Below, in pieces: positions 4,175 through 14,145 of a stretch of DNA of 64,000 nt. How positions within the stretch are numbered: the stretch's first letter is position 1; the number at the start of each line of letters is the position of its first letter. The translations under genes were made by a program, and so were the position numbers. The DNA comes from Aequorivita sp. H23M31 (GTDB lineage Bacteria; Bacteroidota; Bacteroidia; Flavobacteriales; Flavobacteriaceae), in assembly GCF_004022485.1 (NCBI RefSeq), contig NZ_CP034951.1, forward strand, positions 310,001 to 374,000, written 5' to 3'. The notes under the pieces were generated by a model that made no database searches, had not been told where the DNA came from, and was given only the letters and a program-made list of their open reading frames with translations.

Positions 4175-5371
4175 ATGAAGAAAGACGATTTAATTTCAGA
4201 TGATTTTCTGAAGCAGTTCAAGACCCACGAGGAGCTCAGCGATTTTTTAAAGCAGATCCAGAAACGTGGGATCGAAAAGATGCTCGAAGGTGAGCTCGAC
4301 GGCCACCTAGATTACGACAAACACCAGAGGTCCAATGGAGGCAACTCGCGCAACGGGCACTCCCGGAAGAAAATAAAAACCTCCTTTGGCGAATCCGAGA
4401 TTGCCGTCCCCAGAGACCGTGAGGCCTCGTTCAATCCCATGATCGTACCCAAGCGGGGCAATATGGTCGATGGCCTTGAGAACGTCATCGTGTCACTCTA
4501 TGCCAAGGGAATGAGCAACAGCGATATTGAGGAGCAGATACGTGAGGTCTATGATTTTGATGTGTCCACCTCGACCATATCCAGGATCACGGAAAAAATA
4601 TCGGGCGATATAGTTGCCTGGCAGAACCGTCCCTTGGAGCCGGTCTACTTGATTGTCTGGATGGATGGCATCGTATTCAAGGTCCGCGAGAACTCCAAGG
4701 TTATTAACAAGACCATCTACATAGCCGTTGGCCTGCGCAGGGACGGTAAAAAAGAGGTCTTGGGGCTATGGCTTGGCAAGAACGAATCAGCAGCTTTCTG
4801 GATGAGCGTATTGACCGATATAAGGGCGCGCGGCACAGAAGACATCCTTATCACGGCCACCGATAACCTCAATGGTTTTACGGATACGATCAAGAACGTG
4901 TTCCCCGAGTCCAAGACCCAGATATGCGTGGTACACCAGATACGCAATGCCTGCAGGTACGTCGTATGGAAGGATAAAAAAGCCTTTACCGCAGATATGA
5001 AGCATATCTATAACGCCCCAAACCAGGAGGCCGCCAAGATGGCCCTAGAGGATTTTGCCCAAAAATGGAACGATAAATATTCCTATGCCATCAAGAGCTG
5101 GCGCGACAACTGGGAAGAGCTCACAGTGTTCTATGAGTTCCCGTTGGAGATACGCAAGATCATCTATACCACGAACCTTATCGAGAACCTGAACGGGAAG
5201 ATAAGAAAGTACACCAAGAACAAACTTTCCTTCCCAACGGACGATGCCGTGATGAAATCCGTATATTTGGCAGTAAGGGAAGCCACCAAAAAATGGACAA
5301 TGCCCGTCAGGAACTGGGGCATTATATTAAACCAGTTCCTAACGATCTATGAAAAAAGGGTCAGACTCTAA
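4175..5371 (+). CDS. IS256-family (mutator-type) transposase
   Basis: A 398-residue transposase that cuts and joins its own element's ends. The DDE triad can be read: D164 in [10 protein letters not shown]230 in TATDNLNGF, and E337 in [10 protein letters not shown]. The CVVHQIRNA stretch between the second D and the E is a strong IS256 family mark. The N-terminal part (about residues 1-120), with a basic HSRKKIK stretch, is the DNA-binding region. Length is usual for the family and no frame damage is visible, so the element may be active. Codon use is richer in G and C at third positions than in neighbouring genes. Confidence 0.95.
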
Positions 5372-7539: not shown

Positions 7540-8520
7540 CTAAATCCCTTTAGGAATAATTCCTTTGTCTTGCAGGTTTCTACGTTTGGCCACACTCATT
7601 GCTTTTATTTCGTCCGCACTATACGCTCTGTAAATGGTATTAGCTCCCTTTCTATTAGTTTTTTCTTTTGCATTTTGTTTAGCTTCTCTGCGTCGCCTGT
7701 CTGTTTCTTTGGCTTTTTGTGCGGCTTCTAGCCTTTTAACCTTCATTCTTTCAGCGTGATCTTTATTTTTTGCTTCGTGGATGGCTTGTTTTGCTTCTTT
7801 TGCAAGTTGCTGCTTTTGTGCAATTTCTAATTGTTTATTTTTTTCGTTTTCTATATAAGTTACTTCATTTTTAACTACAACTTCCAACCTATCGGCTATG
7901 GTCTTCATAGCTTTAGCAATAGCTTGCTTTTTGGCATATTTAAAACTAATGGACTGATGAAAGCCTATAACTTCAGTATTTAATAACACCGAAATATGTT
8001 GTATTTTTTCTTCATCCTCGGTGATTACTAATTTTGGTTTGGTATCAAAATGCTGTTTGCATAAAAAGATAAGTTGATCCCAATGGTTCTTAAGCTTATA
8101 ATTTTGAGGTAGCAAATGATTATTAGGCAATATGACTAGCTGAAAAATAAAATCCTGCAGTTGTTTTTCGGTCGCATTTTCATACACAAGTCCAAAAAAA
8201 GCATAGCTAAAAATATGTTTCTGTTTAGCCACATCATCCTTGTTTGCAATTCTTTGGATAGTGCGAATGTATTTATCAAAAAATGTATCCAAGAAACTTT
8301 GCTTAAAAATATTTCCTAAAAAATGTTGCAACTGCATTCCATTTCCGGCGGTGTTTTTGAAAATCCATTCGGCTACTTTTCCTTTAAAAGCAAACTGCCC
8401 GAGAAAGACATAACGCGAATTGTTTTTTTCTGAAAAACTATTGTGGGTGAGTACCTGTTGCAAATGGTGTTTTTCATAGTCAATTGCATAACGCTCAAGC
8501 AAGGTTTCTAGCTGTTTCAT
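7540..8520 (-). CDS. degenerate RNase III-like protein with basic C-terminal coiled coil
   Basis: A protein of 326 residues not recognised as a named gene. Residues 5-55 follow the RNase III plan (LQQVLTHNSF, then SRYVFLGQFAFKGKVAEWIF), but the acidic signature NERLEFLGD of active enzymes is replaced: E by S and D by Q, so catalysis is unlikely. Residues about 165-210 (STLLN-like turn, then SFKYAKKQAIAKAMKTI) resemble the last strand and helix of a dsRNA-binding domain. The rest, about 215-300, is a long Lys/Arg/Ala/Glu coiled coil fit for RNA or ribosome contact. The start lies 17 nt past the tRNA at 8537-8626 on the same strand, so they are probably one transcript. It ends with TAG. The RNase III link is inferred by eye. 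Confidence 0.6.
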   Translation of the reverse strand: MKQLETLLERYAIDYEKHHLQQVLTHNSFSEKNNSRYVFLGQFAFKGKVAEWIFKNTAGNGMQLQHFLGNIFKQSFLDTFFDKYIRTIQRIANKDDVAKQKHIFSYAFFGLVYENATEKQLQDFIFQLVILPNNHLLPQNYKLKNHWDQLIFLCKQHFDTKPKLVITEDEEKIQHISVLLNTEVIGFHQSISFKYAKKQAIAKAMKTIADRLEVVVKNEVTYIENEKNKQLEIAQKQQLAKEAKQAIHEAKNKDHAERMKVKRLEAAQKAKETDRRRREAKQNAKEKTNRKGANTIYRAYSADEIKAMSVAKRRNLQDKGIIPKGI

Positions 8521-8536
8521 AAACCGCGAAAATTTG

Positions 8537-8626
8537 CACGCCCGTCAGGAATCGAACCTGAACTGAGGGGTTGGAATCCCCAAAACGGCACCGAAAGCCG
8601 TTGTGCTGCCGTTACACTACGGGCGT
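8537..8626 (-). tRNA. atypical tRNA, anticodon UCG, long variable arm
   Basis: A full cloverleaf: 7-bp acceptor (ACGCCCG/CGGGCGT), D arm GTGTAACGGCAGCAC, 5-bp anticodon stem ACGGC/GCCGT with loop TTTCGGT (anticodon UCG at 8594-8592), a 23-nt variable region with a GGGG/CCCC stem, and T arm TCAGG/CCTGA. The discriminator is G73 and CCA is not encoded. UCG would read CGA (Arg); the body and loop look more like a glutamine tRNA with U35 changed to C. The long variable arm is abnormal for both Arg and Gln. The D arm differs by one base from that of the neighbouring UCA tRNA, so the two are probably paralogues. It starts 5 nt after the CCA of that tRNA. Confidence 0.8.
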
Positions 8627-8631
8627 AAAAG

Positions 8632-8725
8632 TGGAGCAGCGTGTGGGAATCGAACCCACGCTTACGTACTGGAGGTACGTCGTCAAGCTTTGAAGGCTTG
8701 TGTGCTGCCATTACACCAACGCTGC
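8632..8725 (-). tRNA. UGA-decoding tRNA, anticodon UCA, glycine-like body with long variable arm
   Basis: A full cloverleaf: acceptor GCAGCGT/ACGCTGC (7 bp), D arm GTGTAATGGCAGCAC, anticodon stem CAAGC/GCTTG with loop CTTCAAA (anticodon UCA, complement of TGA at 8691-8693), a 24-nt variable region with a perfect 6-bp stem ACGTAC/GTACGT, T arm GTGGG/CCCAC, discriminator U73 and encoded CCA (8634-8632). G1-C72, C2-G71, U73 and C35 are glycine identity elements, and one change (C36 to A) would turn a Gly UCC anticodon into UCA. Selenocysteine tRNA shares the loop CTTCAAA, but its 8-bp acceptor and G73 are absent. It likely serves the TGA-containing genes at 9196-10809 and 12095-13105. Confidence 0.85.
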
Positions 8726-8849
8726 ATATAAATAGTATTGAAAATTGTTGAGCAAATAGAATTGCCACCATCTGGGGAAGTGGTAATATGAAAAATTCCA
8801 TACGAAGTAATTTGAGAATATGCATTTGCCGTTTGCCGTCTTTCATAAA

Positions 8850-8878
8850 GTAAACATAAAATAAATTTTGTTTTTCAA
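8850..8878 (-). promoter_or_regulatory. candidate promoter for the tRNA/RNase III-like transcript
   Basis: On the minus strand a TTG (8878-8876) is followed after 17-19 nt by TATGTTTA, close to the TAnnTTTG -7 box. It lies about 120 nt before the first tRNA and overlaps the divergent promoter candidate for the leader at 8918, so the two transcription units could be controlled together. Confidence 0.35.
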
Positions 8879-8899
8879 CACTTTTTTTACGTACTTTTA
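8867..8899 (+). promoter_or_regulatory. candidate promoter of the recoded T9SS gene
   Basis: TTTG (8867-8870), a 21-nt spacer, then TACTTTTA (8892-8899), near the TAnnTTTG consensus. Transcription from here would give a 5' leader of about 290 nt before the ATG at 9196. Confidence 0.4.
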
Positions 8900-8917
8900 A
8901 AACCGTAATCGTTTTTT

Positions 8918-9195
8918 TACACGAAAACCAAAACTAAACCATAAGACAAAAGCGGCATAGGGTGTTGTTGCCTTCATGAACCGACTGGAAGAAAAGGGAT
9001 ATTATAATTTTTTACAACCTTGGTAAGCTTGTGATACATTCGTTAAAGAAGTTAGGGTAGGGATGCCCGATGAAGTCTCGAAACATGCACACGCGGAACA
9101 ATACCAAAGACACAAAAAGGTTGTAGCTGAAAAAATCTCTTGAGGCTTATTGAACATTGGCAAGTAAAGAACAAAAAACCCATAAAATTACAATT
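8918..9195 (+). promoter_or_regulatory. left copy of a conserved 5' leader (possible structured RNA)
   Basis: This untranslated stretch aligns over its whole length, with scattered changes and small gaps, to the leader of the kinase gene on the other strand (13380-13106). Shared blocks include AAGACAAAAGC, CATAGGGTGTTGT, CCTTCATGA, CTGGAAGA, ACCTTGGTAA, GGTAGGGAT and CTCTTGAGGCTTATTGAAC. The blocks span non-coding sequence and are not in one frame, so an RNA role in translation or stability is more likely than a peptide. The alignment continues into codons 1-8 of the gene. Confidence 0.7.
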
Positions 9196-10809
9196 ATGAA
9201 AAATGTTCAAAATTGAAATAGAAAAGCATCGCTCGTTTTTAAGGAAGTGGATGGCGTAGTTACAAAATCCATTACTTTGTGCGAGCTGGGTGCCAGTGCT
9301 CTGTTGGCAAACCAAGACTTTTCAGATCCTTCAGCAACATTCTCTCTTAAGAAAGGCGCTGCTGTCGCTGGAATCGCTCTTGCTAGTTTGGCAGGAATTC
9401 CTGAAGCATCGGCTCAAGAATATCCCTCTACTCCTCAAATCGCCTTAGAAGTCGATCAGACACAGGCAGTCCTAAAAGCTGTGTTTATCGCCAAGCCTGA
9501 TTATCAGTTCAATACACGTCCTGATTCATCTAGTACTGGTTTTTCCATGCATAGATATAATCCTGCTACTTTAGGTTTTGATCAGCTTGCTGTGGTATCT
9601 AGAGCAAATCCCAATGGCGTAATTACCGATATTGAATTTATCGGAGGAGCAAGTGCTCAGACTCCGTGAGTAAGATATACCATGTCCTTAAGTACCCTAA
9701 CGGACGGTATATATGTTCTTGATTTTATAGGAAGATATGGTGGTAGTCAAAATGCTACAGAAACATATGTTCTTCTCGAAGTACGTGATGGTAAGATAGG
9801 ACTGAGAGCAACAGCAGCAGGACTTGAAGGATTATGAGCAAGTCGAAACAATCTCTATAGTCCCGAGATAAGCGAGTCCCTCTTTGCCAATAACGTGGAT
9901 ATTACCTCTATCGTAGTGAATGAGAGTAATGATGGATTTACCTTAACGGGTGAAGTTGAACAACTGACTTCGGTAGCTCCAGCAGCAGGAACAGTTCCTC
10001 TGGACGTGGCACAAGCAGGACAAGGAGCAAGCAATGGAAAATTTGTAGCTACGTTGGAAGATATGAGTACCATCGAAGTAACTGGAAGCTTTACCTGGAA
10101 TGCAAGTAATAATAAACGGATCGTGACTGCTCAGTTACCTGCTTCGTGTGAAGGTAAAGTACTTACGATAAAACCCAAAGACCACTCGAATTTTTCAAAT
10201 ACTTTTCAGGTATGAGATTATGAATATGCAGCGACTGATGGTATCGGTAAGATCAATAATGCAGCATCTGAAACCATCGAAGGACCACACTTTGACCTTG
10301 CCCAAGGATATGAGAATGCCGTTCTAAATACTGATGGAACCTATGATATCTCTTATAGTATCGACAATGTACCAGCAGATCACACGCCTAGCGCTAGTTT
10401 TGATGGTACTCCTGGAGTATTCTCTGCGGGTAATACAGAAGTAGTTTTCTCTCACGTGACGATCATTCCTAACAATACTTATGATGTTGTGATGACAGAC
10501 GGAGCATGTGAGACTATACAAGTATTTGATGCGAATGCTCTCGGAGTAATGGATTATATCAATATGGCCAATGATCTCAAGATCGCCAGAAATCCACTCC
10601 ACAACAATATCTTAGAATTAGAATATCCTAAGAATATATCATATCTGGATGTTACCGTCTATGATATGACGGGTAAGAAAATAGCCGAGTATAAGAATAC
10701 TGCACAAGATACCGCTCTTGTCGTCAATGCAGGATCAGGAATCTATATCGCACAAGTTGTCGATCCTATTACTGGGACAGGGAAGAATTTAAGGTTTGTT
10801 ATTCAATAA
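9196..10809 (+). CDS. T9SS-sorted secreted protein with four in-frame UGA codons (probably read as glycine)
   Basis: From ATG 9196 to TAA 10807-10809 one frame runs 538 codons with no TAA or TAG and no shift, but with TGA at codons 7 (9214), 158 (9667), 214 (9835) and 340 (10213). Each side of every TGA is normal protein sequence. Residues 52-74 (KKGAAVAGIALAS... ending ASAQ) look like a signal peptide with a long N-terminal extension. Residues about 462-537 form a type IX sorting domain (KIARNPL, YDMTGKKI, GIYIAQV), so the protein should be exported and surface-anchored or released. TGG is also used (W in SFTWNAS), so UGA need not mean Trp. The middle part is unrecognised. A standard annotation would give three unrelated fragments; the first would start at a false GTG, 9247. 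Confidence 0.8.
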
Positions 10810-10828
10810 TATATCTTATCCCTTAATT

Positions 10829-10869
10829 GAAAAAGAGTAGATGCAATTATGTATCTACTCTTTTTCGTT
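10829..10869 (+). terminator. terminator of the recoded T9SS gene
   Basis: The arms GAAAAAGAGTAGAT (10829-10842) and ATCTACTCTTTTTC (10853-10866) form a 14-bp stem with T residues after it. The arm GAAAAAGAGTAGAT recurs at the stop codon of the kinase gene (12095 region, minus strand), another sign that the two genes descend from one cassette. Confidence 0.85.
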
Positions 10870-10952
10870 TTTTGAAGCCTTCAACTTGACTCCGTAAATC
10901 TTTTTAAAAGTCCAGTTAATTTAACCATTACAACACGGCTATTCTCCTCATT

Positions 10953-11398
10953 GAATAAGGTAATAAGGTTGGGGTGGTTTTGTGTTACTAAGGTAATAAG
11001 GTTTTTTTGTATGTTTTTGTGGTTACTGAGGTAATAAGGTTTTTTTGTATGTTTTTGTGGTTACTAAGGTAATAAGGTTGAATTGGTTATTTGTTGGAAG
11101 GTTACTAAGGTAATAAGGTTTTTTGTATGTTGTTGTGGCTACTAAGGTAATAAGGTTTGGTTGTTATGTGTTTGTGGTTACTAAGGTAATAAGGTTTTAT
11201 TCCAATTCCCTGAACTTTTGCTTGGGTGTAATATTTTTTTTATTCACTCGGTCATACCCTTATTACCTTAGTAAATTGGAATGTAGGTGAATCGACCGAC
11301 TTTATCACCTTAGTAAATAGGAATACGTGTGGATGGACAGACCTTATTACCTTAGTAAAAAGAAATGCGAGTGCACCGACAGCCCTTATTACCTTATT
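10953..11398. repeat. REP-like array, left part (11 copies of TTACTAAGGTAATAAGG)
   Basis: Seven copies lie on the plus strand (10953, 10985, 11021, 11059, 11101, 11138, 11177), then four inverted copies (11257, 11299, 11341, 11383). Spacing is 30-60 nt. Each holds a small hairpin TTAC-TAAG-GTAA followed by TAAGG, the layout recognised by Y1 transposases (hairpin plus guide bases). The last inverted copy overlaps the stop codon of the transposase gene at 11394. Spacers are unequal and partly similar, so this is not a CRISPR array. No gene lies in 10871-11393. Confidence 0.85.
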
Positions 11399-11834
11399 CC
11401 CATTTTAGAGTGCGCTGATAAAACTTGACAAACTTGTCATATTCCTCCTGAAAGGTTACTTTTTTATGGTGCTCTGGTTGGTTCAAAATATACTTGCAGA
11501 CTTTATCCACATCAGCCTTTGAAACCGAAAAAGCAGAGCCCGATTCTTGCCATTGGAAATTTCCCGCACATAATTTTTCTTTGCCAATAAATTGGGACGA
11601 GCCATCAGCTACCTTAGTCAAGAGCTCAACTTCCGAGATTCTAGGATTTCGAGATACTAGAATATGAACATGTTCCGGGTTGGCATAGATCGCATACAGC
11701 TTGCTCCCTGTATTGTTCACGATTCCCGTAATGTACTTTTCTATTCGCTCTCTACTCTCTTCTTTGATAAACGGATACCTGTTTTTGGTAATCAGGATAA
11801 AATGCGTGTACAGGTTGTTATAATCTATTTTCAT
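11394..11834 (-). CDS. REP-associated tyrosine transposase (IS200-like Y1 / RAYT)
   Basis: A single-domain HUH nuclease of 146 residues that cuts and rejoins single-stranded DNA at hairpin repeats. The HUH motif is EHVHILVS (about residues 53-60), and the catalytic tyrosine is in KYILNQPEHHKK near the C-terminus, the classic IS200/RAYT ending. The frame is complete and free of TGA. Copies of one hairpin repeat flank it on both sides, with those on the left facing in two directions, as in REPtrons. It may have spread these repeats here or been recruited to them. It sits between the two recoded genes, but nothing ties its function to recoding. Confidence 0.88.
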   Translation of the reverse strand: MKIDYNNLYTHFILITKNRYPFIKEESRERIEKYITGIVNNTGSKLYAIYANPEHVHILVSRNPRISEVELLTKVADGSSQFIGKEKLCAGNFQWQESGSAFSVSKADVDKVCKYILNQPEHHKKVTFQEEYDKFVKFYQRTLKWE

Positions 11835-11867
11835 AGTAATAGAGTTGCGATGGTTAGGTGTTTGTGG

Positions 11868-12027
11868 GTTATTAAGGTAATAAGGTAGGGGAGGTTTTGT
11901 GTGTTCGTAGTTACTAAGGTAATAAGGTTGAGTTGGTTATTTGTTTGTGGTTACTAAGGTAATAAGGTTTTGGTTATCGTCTAAGATTTACTTTATCGTA
12001 TGTTTTGTTCACTTAGGTAATAAGGTT
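11868..12027 (+). repeat. REP-like array, right part (4 copies)
   Basis: Four plus-strand copies of the same repeat (11868, 11911, 11951, 12009) lie upstream of the transposase start. Together with the left part this makes 15 copies. Nothing else is visible in 11835-12094. Confidence 0.85.
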
Positions 12028-12094
12028 TTAATTATCGTCTATTTTTTTTGAGTGTCTAATTGTCAAAGTTAGGAGAGTTTCTATAATTGCGTAT

Positions 12095-13105
12095 CTACTC
12101 TTTTTCGTTTAATAAAGCTTTTATTTTGGCTTGGGTAGCGACATTCCATCCAAAGTTTCTCTGATTTGCAGGAGAGAATAAATTTGTAATCATCATCAAA
12201 CTTGAAAGTTGGGTGTATTCAGTAATTCTGTAATCTTTGGAATAATGCATATAAGTGTCAAGAAATAGTTTGACAATGCTTTTATAGTCCTTATTATTAA
12301 GAATATAAGCAATCTTTATCTGTGTCAAAAAAATGCCAATATCTATTCCTGCTTCTCCATAGGGTATATCACTAAAATCTATTAGAAATATTTTACCTCC
12401 GGGTCAGATTATGATATTGTCGCCATGAAAATCGCCATGAAGATGGACACAGGGACGATTTTGGTCTACTTTCATCATTTTCATATATCCCTCGAAAGCT
12501 TTTTCAATCTGTTGGGCAAACCATGGACTGTCGGCAACTTCCAAAGTCATAGATTCATAATACGGTAGTAGGGATTGGGTGTTCGTAATCAACTCTCTAA
12601 AACCTCTACGATATACTGTTTTAGGATTATGTAGTCCGTTATAAACCTGACTATGAATCTGTGCAATATGCTTTGCGACAGCTTTTATATTGCTTGAAGA
12701 ACACTTTAACAGGTTCATAGTTTGTCACGACACATACTCCTGCAAATGATAATGATTGTTATCCTGTTGCTTATAGCCATAAGATTTCACATTATTATAT
12801 TGGTGATTAAGGTCATACATCATATCGGACAGGATGAGGCTTTGTGATATATCACTATCATAGTCATAACCCACAACATTTTTCCTTGCTATCTTTAAAA
12901 TATACTTTCTTTTTCCTCACTCCAAAATATACACATGACAAAGATGTCAGGAGGTAAGATAATTGACACTTGTACTTTTGTCGTTAGTAAGTGTGTTAAA
13001 GTACTTTATAAGGGAATGGTCAATTGTGGATAACAGCGCTACTATCTCAGATCGTTCATCAACTACAGGAATAACTTTTAAGTTTCAATCTTGATTATCT
13101 TTCAT
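12095..13105 (-). CDS. APH/choline-kinase-like phosphotransferase with five in-frame UGA codons (probably read as glycine)
   Basis: From ATG 13105 to TAG 12097-12095 the frame runs 337 codons with TGA at codons 7 (13087), 53 (12949), 63 (12919), 127 (12727) and 234 (12406) and no TAA, TAG or shift. The kinase fold is complete only across the TGAs: LTS-UGA-HLCHVYILE-UGA-GKRKYILKIA, with K71 as ATP-binding lysine; the hinge EYVS-UGA-QTM; catalytic loop HGDFHGDN (H223, D225, N230); then UGA, PGGKIFLIDFSD with metal-binding D243. APH kinases normally have glycine in the first loop and in the hinge (EYxxGxTL), so Gly is the best reading. TGG codons also occur. Substrate unknown: a small-molecule kinase, possibly drug-modifying. 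Convergent with the T9SS gene. Confidence 0.82.
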
Positions 13106-13380
13106 ATCTATTTAATTTTTTCACTGTACATACTACTTTCATTGAGTTCAATAAGCTTCAAGAGAACACAATACAAACACCTTTCTTTTTCTTTGGAATT
13201 GTTCATCTTAGGTATCATTCAAAACTTTATTGGGTATCCCTACCGTAATTATTTAATGAATTTACCCCAAGTTTACCAAGGTTTTTGTAAGATATATCAA
13301 TCTCCTATCTTCCAGCAAGTCATGAAGGCGACAACACCCTATGATGCTTTTGTCTTGTGGTTTAGTGCAATTGTTTCGTA
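13106..13380 (-). promoter_or_regulatory. right copy of the conserved 5' leader, before the recoded kinase
   Basis: Inverted homologue of 8918-9195. The match begins near 13380 and runs through ATG 13105 into codon 8, so both genes begin Met-Lys-x-x-Gln-x-UGA-Asn. A 17-codon open frame ending CCT TGG TAA is found at the same place in both leaders (8976-9026 and 13323-13273), but insertions break frame agreement between them, so it is probably not a conserved peptide. The open frame at 13091-13411 on the plus strand is the shadow of this leader. Confidence 0.7.
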
Positions 13381-13390
13381 TATAAGGAAC

Positions 13391-14145
13391 GTATTAGTAT
13401 TACGAATATAGAGATTGTTATCAATTTTGCATATAAAAAAATCTAGAAAATGTTTAGTAATATCGAAATCGAAAACGAAACTGAAATCGAGGGTGAAGTT
13501 GAAATGGTAGAGGAAATAATTTTTCCAATGTCGCCTTACTTAACCAATTAGGGTTCACAAAATCTATTTTCCCCTTTAGAGCCTGTCCCGAACTGGCTTC
13601 GGGAGGTAGGGAATCTAACCTATATTTCCAATTCCCCCTCGGGGGGCTAGGGGGACAGGCCTTTAGAAACTGCCTCTCGGCTTCGCTTGCCTTCCCAAGG
13701 CACGTAGGCAGGCTCGGGAACTGAAATAGAAATCGAAAACGAAGTTGAAGTTGAAGTCGAATTTGAAGAAAATAGTTTCCGTTAATTATTTGAGGAATTA
13801 AGGATAGCAAAATCTTTTTCCTCCCCTTTAGAGCCTGTCCCGAACTGGCTTCGGGAGGTTGGGGTCTTATGAAACCGAAATCGAAACTGAAAACGAAATC
13901 TAGCATCGAAAAATTCTATGCAATATTTTCATTTCCCTCTATAGCGGTTAGGGGATCTAACCAATATTTCCATTCCCCCCTCGGGGGCTAGGGGGACAGA
14001 CCTTTAGAAACTGCCCCTCGGCTCCTTTCGGGAAACGGAATTGGAAATCGAAATGGACGATGAATATGAACCTTATACAAATAAATCCCCCATCATTAAC
14101 TAATAACTCCCAAATTCAATACCTTCGCATTAAATCCGAATTATT
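13391..14145. repeat. intergenic repeat mosaic (GAAATC-type and CCCCCTCGGGGG-type modules)
   Basis: No gene is supported here. Short runs of GAAATCGAAA-type hexamers (13460-13500, 13720-13770, 13870-13905, 14040-14065) alternate with GC-rich modules: TTTAGAGCCTGTCCCGAACT (13577 and 13828), and CCCCCTCGGGGG followed by CTAGGGGGACAG (about 13630 and 13978). The same module types recur at 42090-42830 and 47680-48180. The 150-codon minus frame at 13454-13906 is low-complexity repeat. Confidence 0.75.

Follow-up and report, generated by a model that had tools for sequence, protein, structure and literature searches.

Can two genes that carry several in-frame TGA codons be expressed from the chromosome of a bacterium in which UGA is a stop? 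The question is raised by a locus of Aequorivita sp. H23M31 (Bacteroidota, Flavobacteriaceae), whose genome is a single contig of 3.68 Mb (NZ_CP034951.1). The window analyzed here is the 64-kb stretch at positions 310001-374000 of this contig, and coordinates below are those of the window unless stated otherwise. Two tRNA genes with anticodons UCA and UCG (8537-8725, reverse strand) lie there beside two protein genes, herein referred to as g1 (9196-10809, forward strand) and g2 (13105-12095, reverse strand), which together hold nine in-frame TGA codons. Each of the tRNAs contains a second anticodon-like arm. The favored explanation, to which a probability of roughly 60% is given, is an accessory island formed by two tandem-arm tRNAs, predicted to insert glycine at UGA and tryptophan at CGA/CGG, and by two genes whose nine UGA codons are probably read as glycine.

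In-frame TGA codons and the code of the host

The two genes and the TGA codon that they share by position are as follows.

9196-10809, forward strand: g1, 537 codons with 4 in-frame TGA; protein of secreted type, ending in a weak C-terminal sorting domain of the type IX secretion system (T9SS)
12095-13105, reverse strand: g2, 336 codons with 5 in-frame TGA; kinase of the choline-kinase/APH type
9214-9216, forward strand: TGA at codon 7 of g1, the same codon number as a TGA of g2
13085-13087, reverse strand: TGA at codon 7 of g2, the same codon number as a TGA of g1

The TGA codons lie at 9214, 9667, 9835, and 10213 in g1 and at 13087, 12949, 12919, 12727, and 12406 in g2; no internal TAA or TAG was found in either frame. 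The T9SS sorting tail of g1 is matched below the cut-off (E = 8.9e-5), and g2 matches the Choline_kinase (2.2e-9) and APH (2.1e-8) profiles.

Sense codons one step away from TGA (77 in g1 and g2 together) are rarer than those near TAG (108) or TAA (147), so that nine TGA of nine stops are unlikely under decay (P between 1.9e-6 and 4.5e-7, with transitions weighted 1 to 4). An initial annotation, made from the sequence, had put this chance at about 1 in 20,000; the rarity holds, while the computed figure, near 1e-6, is lower. All 11 segments between the TGA codons (873 codons) score best in frame 0 with host codon usage, and thus no frameshift is evident. Both the re-read frames and this scoring agree with the earlier description of nine TGA, no TAA or TAG, and no frameshift.

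The same annotation described the recoding as local rather than genome-wide, which is borne out by the stop usage of the host. Among the 41 open reading frames (ORFs) of the window judged to be likely genes, 27 end in TAA, 8 in TAG, and 6 in TGA, and the next in-frame stop after the TGA ends lies 5 to 35 codons further on; UGA is therefore still a stop in this organism. CGA/CGG codons are used by the host at 9.3 per 1000 codons (window ORFs), and its own tRNA-Arg with anticodon UCG is retained in the genome. Given this tRNA-Arg and this codon use, the tRNA pair of the island must be controlled, confined, or weak, and the host UGA stops and CGA/CGG codons likewise imply some restriction on it.

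The product of g2 was aligned roughly with six distant kinase ORFs, an unrelated enolase ORF being left out of the residue count. The residues facing UGA are Gly, Thr, Thr, and Phe at 12949; Gly, Gly, Lys, Lys, and Asn at 12727; Asp (four times), Trp, and Ser at 12406; Ser and Ile at 12919; and Phe, Phe, and Ala at codon 7.

Two tRNAs with a second anticodon-like arm

The tRNA genes were called by ARAGORN and scored with the Rfam tRNA model (cut-off 29 bits), which gave 61.9 bits for the UCA tRNA and 54.0 bits for the UCG tRNA. The presence of a UCA tRNA adjoining the two TGA-bearing genes is confirmed in this way. The two tRNAs had, however, both been taken for UGA suppressors, and this is not so for the second, which has the anticodon UCG and is predicted to read CGA/CGG as tryptophan. 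ARAGORN labels the UCA tRNA SeC. In both molecules, the D stem is followed by an arm of 5 base pairs (bp) with a 7-nucleotide loop, containing UCA or UCG, and then by a second arm in the position of a long variable arm; this second anticodon-like arm was absent from the earlier description. One other carrier, L041, a contig of a Chitinophagaceae metagenome-assembled genome (MAG) with a UCG and a UCA tRNA built in the same way, was found by an exact-pattern scan of the genome_contigs collection, which more diverged carriers would escape.

8632-8725, reverse strand: UCA tRNA gene; arm-1 anticodon UCA at 8693-8691, acceptor GCAGCGT/ACGCTGC, U73, CCA encoded; predicted glycine acceptor
8684-8700, reverse strand: arm 1 of the UCA tRNA; 5 bp, loop CUUCAAA, anticodon UCA
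8664-8680, reverse strand: arm 2 of the UCA tRNA; 5 bp, loop CCUCCAG with UCC (a glycine anticodon) in the 34-36 register; the loop is identical in the L041 UCA tRNA
8537-8626, reverse strand: UCG tRNA gene; arm-1 anticodon UCG, acceptor ACGCCCG/CGGGCGU, G73 as in host tRNA-Trp; predicted tryptophan acceptor reading CGA/CGG
8567-8581, reverse strand: arm 2 of the UCG tRNA; loop AUUCCAA or UUCCAAC, with an ambiguous register (UCC or CCA) and 4 of 5 pairs in either

Three known kinds of tRNA were compared with the UCA tRNA, and each differs from it in the acceptor branch. A tRNA for selenocysteine (tRNA-Sec) requires a 13-bp acceptor branch and G73, and a 7-bp acceptor with a 5-bp T stem and U73 were found. 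Allo-tRNAs have a 12-bp branch divided as 8/4 or 9/3, and the division here is 7/5. A selC* tRNA-Cys would agree in U73, but the branch is 7/5, not 8/4, and no bulged A51a is present. Elsewhere on the contig (positions 1928403-1929194 of the contig, near tRNA-Val), three tRNA-like sequences with low scores (37, 37, and 31.6 bits) are spaced about 360 bases apart.

Amino-acid identity was judged against the own tRNAs of the host and published identity rules. Host tRNA-Trp has A1-U72, C2-G71, G3-C70, and G73, and the same set is present in the UCG tRNA, whose position 20 is C, not A (numbered by eye). The 5' acceptor strand of the L041 UCG tRNA (ACGGGTG) is identical to that of host tRNA-Trp. 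Both UCG tRNAs thus have G73 and no A20, as expected of a tryptophan-charged UCG tRNA, and the supporting A/G1:U72 pair is A1-U72 in each. Host tRNA-Gly has G1-C72, C2-G71, and U73, all shared by the UCA tRNA of the island; U73 is also found in host tRNA-Cys. The four elements of the glycine rule (G1:C72, C2:G71, G3:C70, U73) are all present in the L041 UCA tRNA, and the window tRNA misses only G3:C70. The rules, so far as the accessible portions of the sources give them, point to glycine for UCA and tryptophan for UCG, except for pair 3:70 of the window UCA tRNA (PMC8629427; PMC9976931). The UCA tRNA is predicted to be a glycine acceptor reading UGA and the UCG tRNA a tryptophan acceptor reading CGA/CGG; judged by tRNA identity, glycine is the likeliest residue at UGA.

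UCA tRNAs with two arms were also found in viruses. Two scans without any requirement on arm 2, one giving 4 viral loci and another 14, yielded 15 distinct UCA tRNAs, and UCCA is present in arm 2 of all 15. A scan requiring UCCA returned 107 stretches, 62 of them with an ARAGORN UCA tRNA, and added 33 distinct tRNAs, bringing the total to 48 (loci L037-L040 and L043-L145). All 48 have a long second arm and are labeled SeC by ARAGORN, so that more tandem-arm UCA tRNAs may be mislabeled in databases. By comparison, UCCA is present in only 2 of the 85 ordinary class II variable regions of these loci. The arm-2 stems are paired in 214 of 240 cells in register, versus 67 to 110 when slid, with several pair types per position, and the loop reads N-U-CCA-A-N in 46 of 48 (GUCCAUA in the other two). 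The automatically chosen best register of arm 2 gave CCA for 44 of 50 tRNAs (the 48 viral ones, L041, and the window) and UCC for three (window, L041, and the viral locus L132). The viral acceptors are tryptophan-like: 47 of the 48 have G73, and 43 have A-U or G-U as pair 1:72.

A covariance model of this five-helix architecture (R1), built from 23 viral UCA tRNAs and tested on 31 host tRNA loci, gave 66.0 to 77.4 bits for the four cassette tRNAs of the window and L041, compared with 45.4 for the best host tRNA, a tRNA-Ser, and 44.0 for host tRNA-Trp. The cassette UCA tRNA fits the viral architecture, but with UCC in arm 2 and a glycine-type acceptor instead of the viral CCA and tryptophan acceptor. 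The exact glycine-type arm pattern had no matches in viruses; a search there for UCG/CCA tandem arms gave 19 stretches, each of which was either an ordinary tRNA or not a tRNA, and one for an amber/glutamine tandem arm gave a single stretch, an ordinary tRNA-Gln.

Coding cover was compared for one locus per distinct tRNA among loci of at least 3 kb, a difference of at least 0.15 between TGA and TAG read as sense being counted as a gain. With TGA as sense, 17 of 43 viral loci gain (one shows the reverse), compared with 4 of 40 loci without an ARAGORN UCA tRNA (two the reverse); two of these four gainers, L081 and L130, contain a two-arm UCA sequence missed by ARAGORN. In the ORFs of 39 hand-picked viral loci, 278 TGA sites were aligned, 62 of which have only TGA as partners. 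At the other 216 the commonest partner is Trp (64), followed by Ser (18), Glu (18), Tyr (15), and Cys (14), with Gly at 9, the count including L050, where the partners are mostly Glu and the ORF is probably off-frame. The commonest partners of viral TGG sites are Trp (233) and TGA (84). Viral UGA most often stands at the tryptophan positions of relatives, in agreement with acceptor and arm 2, which supports a role for arm 2 in specifying the amino acid.

A mechanism may be proposed on this basis. On the ribosome, the codon would be paired by arm 1 (UCA or UCG), and arm 2 would present the usual anticodon to the charging enzyme, UCC to glycyl-tRNA synthetase (GlyRS) and CCA to tryptophanyl-tRNA synthetase (TrpRS); the amino acid would thereby be kept though the decoding anticodon had changed. 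GlyRS needs C35 and C36 and TrpRS needs the CCA anticodon, according to the available part of PMC9976931. UCA cannot fully supply either, which is why a tandem arm would be useful. A structural role for arm 2 is the alternative to recognition by a synthetase. Whether the tRNAs form a wider class is a tentative matter, which we would put at somewhat short of even: two-headed tRNAs, with one arm for the ribosome and the other for the synthetase, by which phages would make UGA tryptophan and this chromosome would run UGA as glycine and CGA/CGG as tryptophan on private genes in a standard-code cell.

Leader, P0002 protein, and mobile surroundings

Further features lie on both sides of the tRNA pair and around g1 and g2.

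8933-9195, forward strand: g1 leader, non-coding, conserved with the g2 leader and possibly structured
13106-13366, reverse strand: g2 leader, related to the g1 leader
10828-10867, forward strand: terminator-like hairpin 3' of g1
7540-8520, reverse strand: gene for P0002, 326 amino acids, weakly RNase III-like, directly downstream of the tRNA pair
11394-11834, reverse strand: gene for an IS200-like Y1 transposase, located between the two TGA-bearing genes, with GTTACTAAGGTAATAAGGTT repeat arrays on either side

About 260 bases ahead of the ATG are common to g1 and g2. The alignment of leaders and gene starts, which reaches about 65 bases into the genes, is identical in 212 of 347 columns. Its differences fall on the codon phases as 28, 28, and 32, and because they show no codon periodicity the leader is regarded as non-coding. 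Within the genes, both products start with MK-x-x-Q-x-X-N-x-K, X being the TGA of codon 7, which is thus retained in both despite the divergence to 212 of 347. RNAalifold gave z = -3.1 against column shuffles, with 53 pairs, 7 two-sided changes, and none broken; this is suggestive of a conserved structure, from two sequences and with pairs fitted by the method itself. At the other end, a 58-nucleotide sequence after g1 (10834-10891), in which the terminator-like hairpin forms, has a relative with 74% identity at 12074-12131, the 3' end of the convergent g2. No further copy of the leader was found in the genome (other matches have E of 0.08 or worse), none among 27 genomes of the same genus, and no Rfam family match covers either leader. 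The exact leader pattern had no hits in genome_contigs and a single hit in viruses, inside a phage ORF, which was taken as chance. Promoter scans gave nothing above chance.

P0002 has a homologue, P0001 (34% identical), adjoining the same tRNA pair in L041. P0002 matches PF14622 with E = 1.1e-4 and 22.8 bits, under the 35-bit cut-off, and P0001 gives no match; the match to RNase 3 in PDB has E = 0.28. By eye, the catalytic acids appear to be lost in P0002, with a double-stranded-RNA-binding part after them. Neither PADLOC nor PHROGs gave a match. The leader, P0002, or both would be candidates for confining the decoding to g1 and g2 and so sparing the host UGA stops and CGA codons.

The distribution of the cassette is narrow. 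Relatives of P0002 were found in one of 299 genomes of its own family and in one of 395 of the phylum, in both cases the query itself, and, in the family to which the MAG belongs, in 2 of 244 genomes, one being the MAG and the other giving a weak partial match. Plasmids, phages, and viral contigs gave no relative. None of the 27 same-genus genomes carries the tRNA pair, whose DNA had no match spanning 80% of the query in phages and plasmids. The tRNA pair and the protein gene thus appear to form a rare accessory cassette, probably mobile.

The GTTACTAAGGTAATAAGGTT arrays occur in both orientations at 10936-11396 and 11853-12043, on either side of the Y1 transposase gene. The arrangement resembles that of REP-associated elements, and it may be the Y1 transposase element that makes up the mobile portion of the island. 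A Mutator-family transposase gene lies at 4175-5371, about 3 kb from the tRNA cassette. Beyond g2, at 13462-14070, low-complexity GAAATCGAAAACGAA-type repeats are interspersed with other repeats (13570-13611 and 13822-13863 are 98% identical).

Alternative explanations and known systems

Four other explanations were weighed. If g1 and g2 were decaying pseudogenes, their TGA codons would be ordinary nonsense mutations and the tRNAs unrelated to them. Such a view would suit orphan genes that adjoin a transposase and have no close homologues, but nine TGA of nine (P about 1e-6), the lack of a frameshift across 873 codons, TGA at codon 7 of both genes, and the adjacent UCA tRNA of glycine type make it unlikely. 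We also regard it as unlikely that the two tRNAs serve as a mistranslation weapon or an anti-phage system, placing glycine at UGA and tryptophan at CGA either in phages that are recoded or in the host cell during infection, with the protein restraining the pair and g1 and g2 as passengers or effectors. The host CGA/CGG codons and UGA stops would indeed be hit, there are UGA-recoded viruses that carry such tandem-arm tRNAs, and the distribution is rare and accessory; on the other hand, UGA stands in the coding frames of g1 and g2 as if it were needed there, and P0002 resembles nothing in PADLOC or PHROGs.

Both tRNAs could instead be class II molecules of the allo-tRNA or tRNA-Ser sort, with a plain variable arm, charged by seryl-tRNA synthetase (SerRS) and reading UGA as serine. 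The long variable-like arm and G73 of the UCG tRNA would agree with this. It is nevertheless improbable in view of U73 in the UCA tRNA, an acceptor branch of 7+5 bp rather than 8/4 or 9/3, an arm-2 loop with UCCA, which is no class II feature (2/85), and C2-G71 in both tRNAs, listed in the accessible part of PMC9976931 as an antideterminant against SerRS in E. coli tRNA-Leu. Insertion of selenocysteine or cysteine is the least probable of all, close to negligible. The SeC label given by ARAGORN and the U73 shared with host tRNA-Cys speak for it; against it are the 7-bp acceptor with a 5-bp T stem, U73, and UCC in arm 2, as well as the scatter of the UGA sites over a secreted-type protein and a kinase, with no redox-motif look by eye.

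Several observations weigh against an island with glycine at UGA and tryptophan at CGA/CGG. The window UCA tRNA has A3-U70 in place of G3-C70 of the published glycine rule. Host tRNA-Thr also has G1-C72, C2-G71, and U73, and the choice of glycine over threonine hence rests on arm 2 (UCC). This arm has C33, not U33, in the UCA tRNAs of both the window and L041, and the ambiguous register of the UCG tRNA (UCC or CCA) is accompanied by an L041 UCG arm 2 that pairs best as UCC. For 33 of the 48 viral tRNAs, UCCA was already part of the pattern used to select them, and reading TGA as sense brings no clear gain in 26 of 43 viral loci; some of these 26 viruses may use the UCA tRNA rarely or never. 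The initial annotation had proposed to judge glycine by the residues aligned with UGA, and glycine does occur in the five g2 columns of the six distant kinases (3 of 20, in two columns) but does not prevail (Asp 4, Trp 1); the assignment accordingly rests mainly on tRNA identity. Close homologues of g1 or g2 were not found in 345 genomes of the phylum searched for each (5 matches for g2 and 4 for g1 including the own genome, the non-self ones marginal with E of 1e-4 to 8e-4), nor of g2 in plasmids or of g1 in phages. Since g1 and g2 contain only 3 CGA/CGG codons, tryptophan decoding is barely testable in them. A search of the 1.9-Mb MAG genome did not find the leader (best E 0.26), which may therefore not be a general part of the cassette. 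The exact gene-start pattern occurs in the own genome only in g1 and g2, with 17 further matches at 2 or 3 mismatches. Finally, with a host tRNA-Arg UCG, CGA/CGG at 9.3 per 1000, and 6 of 41 genes ending in TGA, unrestrained activity of the cassette should be costly.

The local UGA-recoding island first proposed for this locus is still the best fit to nine TGA of nine, the coding segments between them, the shared TGA at codon 7, the glycine-type UCA tRNA, and the absence from the 27 same-genus genomes. Because GlyRS and TrpRS read the anticodon, a change of codon may cost a tRNA its amino acid. The tandem anticodon arm, if true, would be a simple natural way to change the codon and yet keep the amino acid: the decoding anticodon would be freed from also having to satisfy the charging enzyme, which could be used for genetic code expansion. 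A chromosomal island with a second code for a few genes, if true, would mean that what a codon stands for need not be a property of a whole genome but can be local and mobile.

Parts of this arrangement are found in known systems. No account of a tRNA with two anticodon arms was present among the matches listed in the literature surveyed, which covers few subscription journals. As in the cassette, the selC* tRNA-Cys and allo-tRNAs combine a long extra arm with UCA or odd anticodons and derive their identity from the tRNA body; they have 8/4 or 9/3 branches, unlike the 7/5 of the cassette, and the accessible account describes no anticodon-like second arm (PMC7609411). Nematode nev-tRNAs have a long arm on tRNAs with glycine-type anticodons, but are misacylated with leucine in vitro, and no UGA decoding is mentioned in the part of the source at hand (PMC4300185). 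In the E. coli thrS operator, an RNA likewise presents two anticodon-like stems to a synthetase, but it is a regulatory mRNA, not a tRNA (PMC9976931, in part).

The nearest parallels concern UGA itself. A phage with UGA as tryptophan and a sup-TCA tRNA of isotype Trp or Arg has been described (Lera phage; PMC12386605). Here, too, a UCA tRNA stands beside standard-code hosts, and the viral UCA tRNAs of the present survey share the tandem-arm architecture; the accessible account, by which alone this phage was compared, mentions no second arm. The cassette UCA tRNA differs in its glycine-type arm 2 and acceptor, in its chromosomal location, and in having a UCG tRNA and a protein gene as partners. 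For Absconditabacteria, UGA as glycine and CGA/CGG as tryptophan are predicted (PMC8629427, in the portion available), the same two codon reassignments and amino acids as in the island, likewise with a glycine-type acceptor on UCA and a tryptophan-type G73 on UCG. That code is genome-wide, whereas in Aequorivita sp. H23M31 UGA is still a stop and a normal tRNA-Arg UCG is present, and the tRNAs of the island have two anticodon-like arms.

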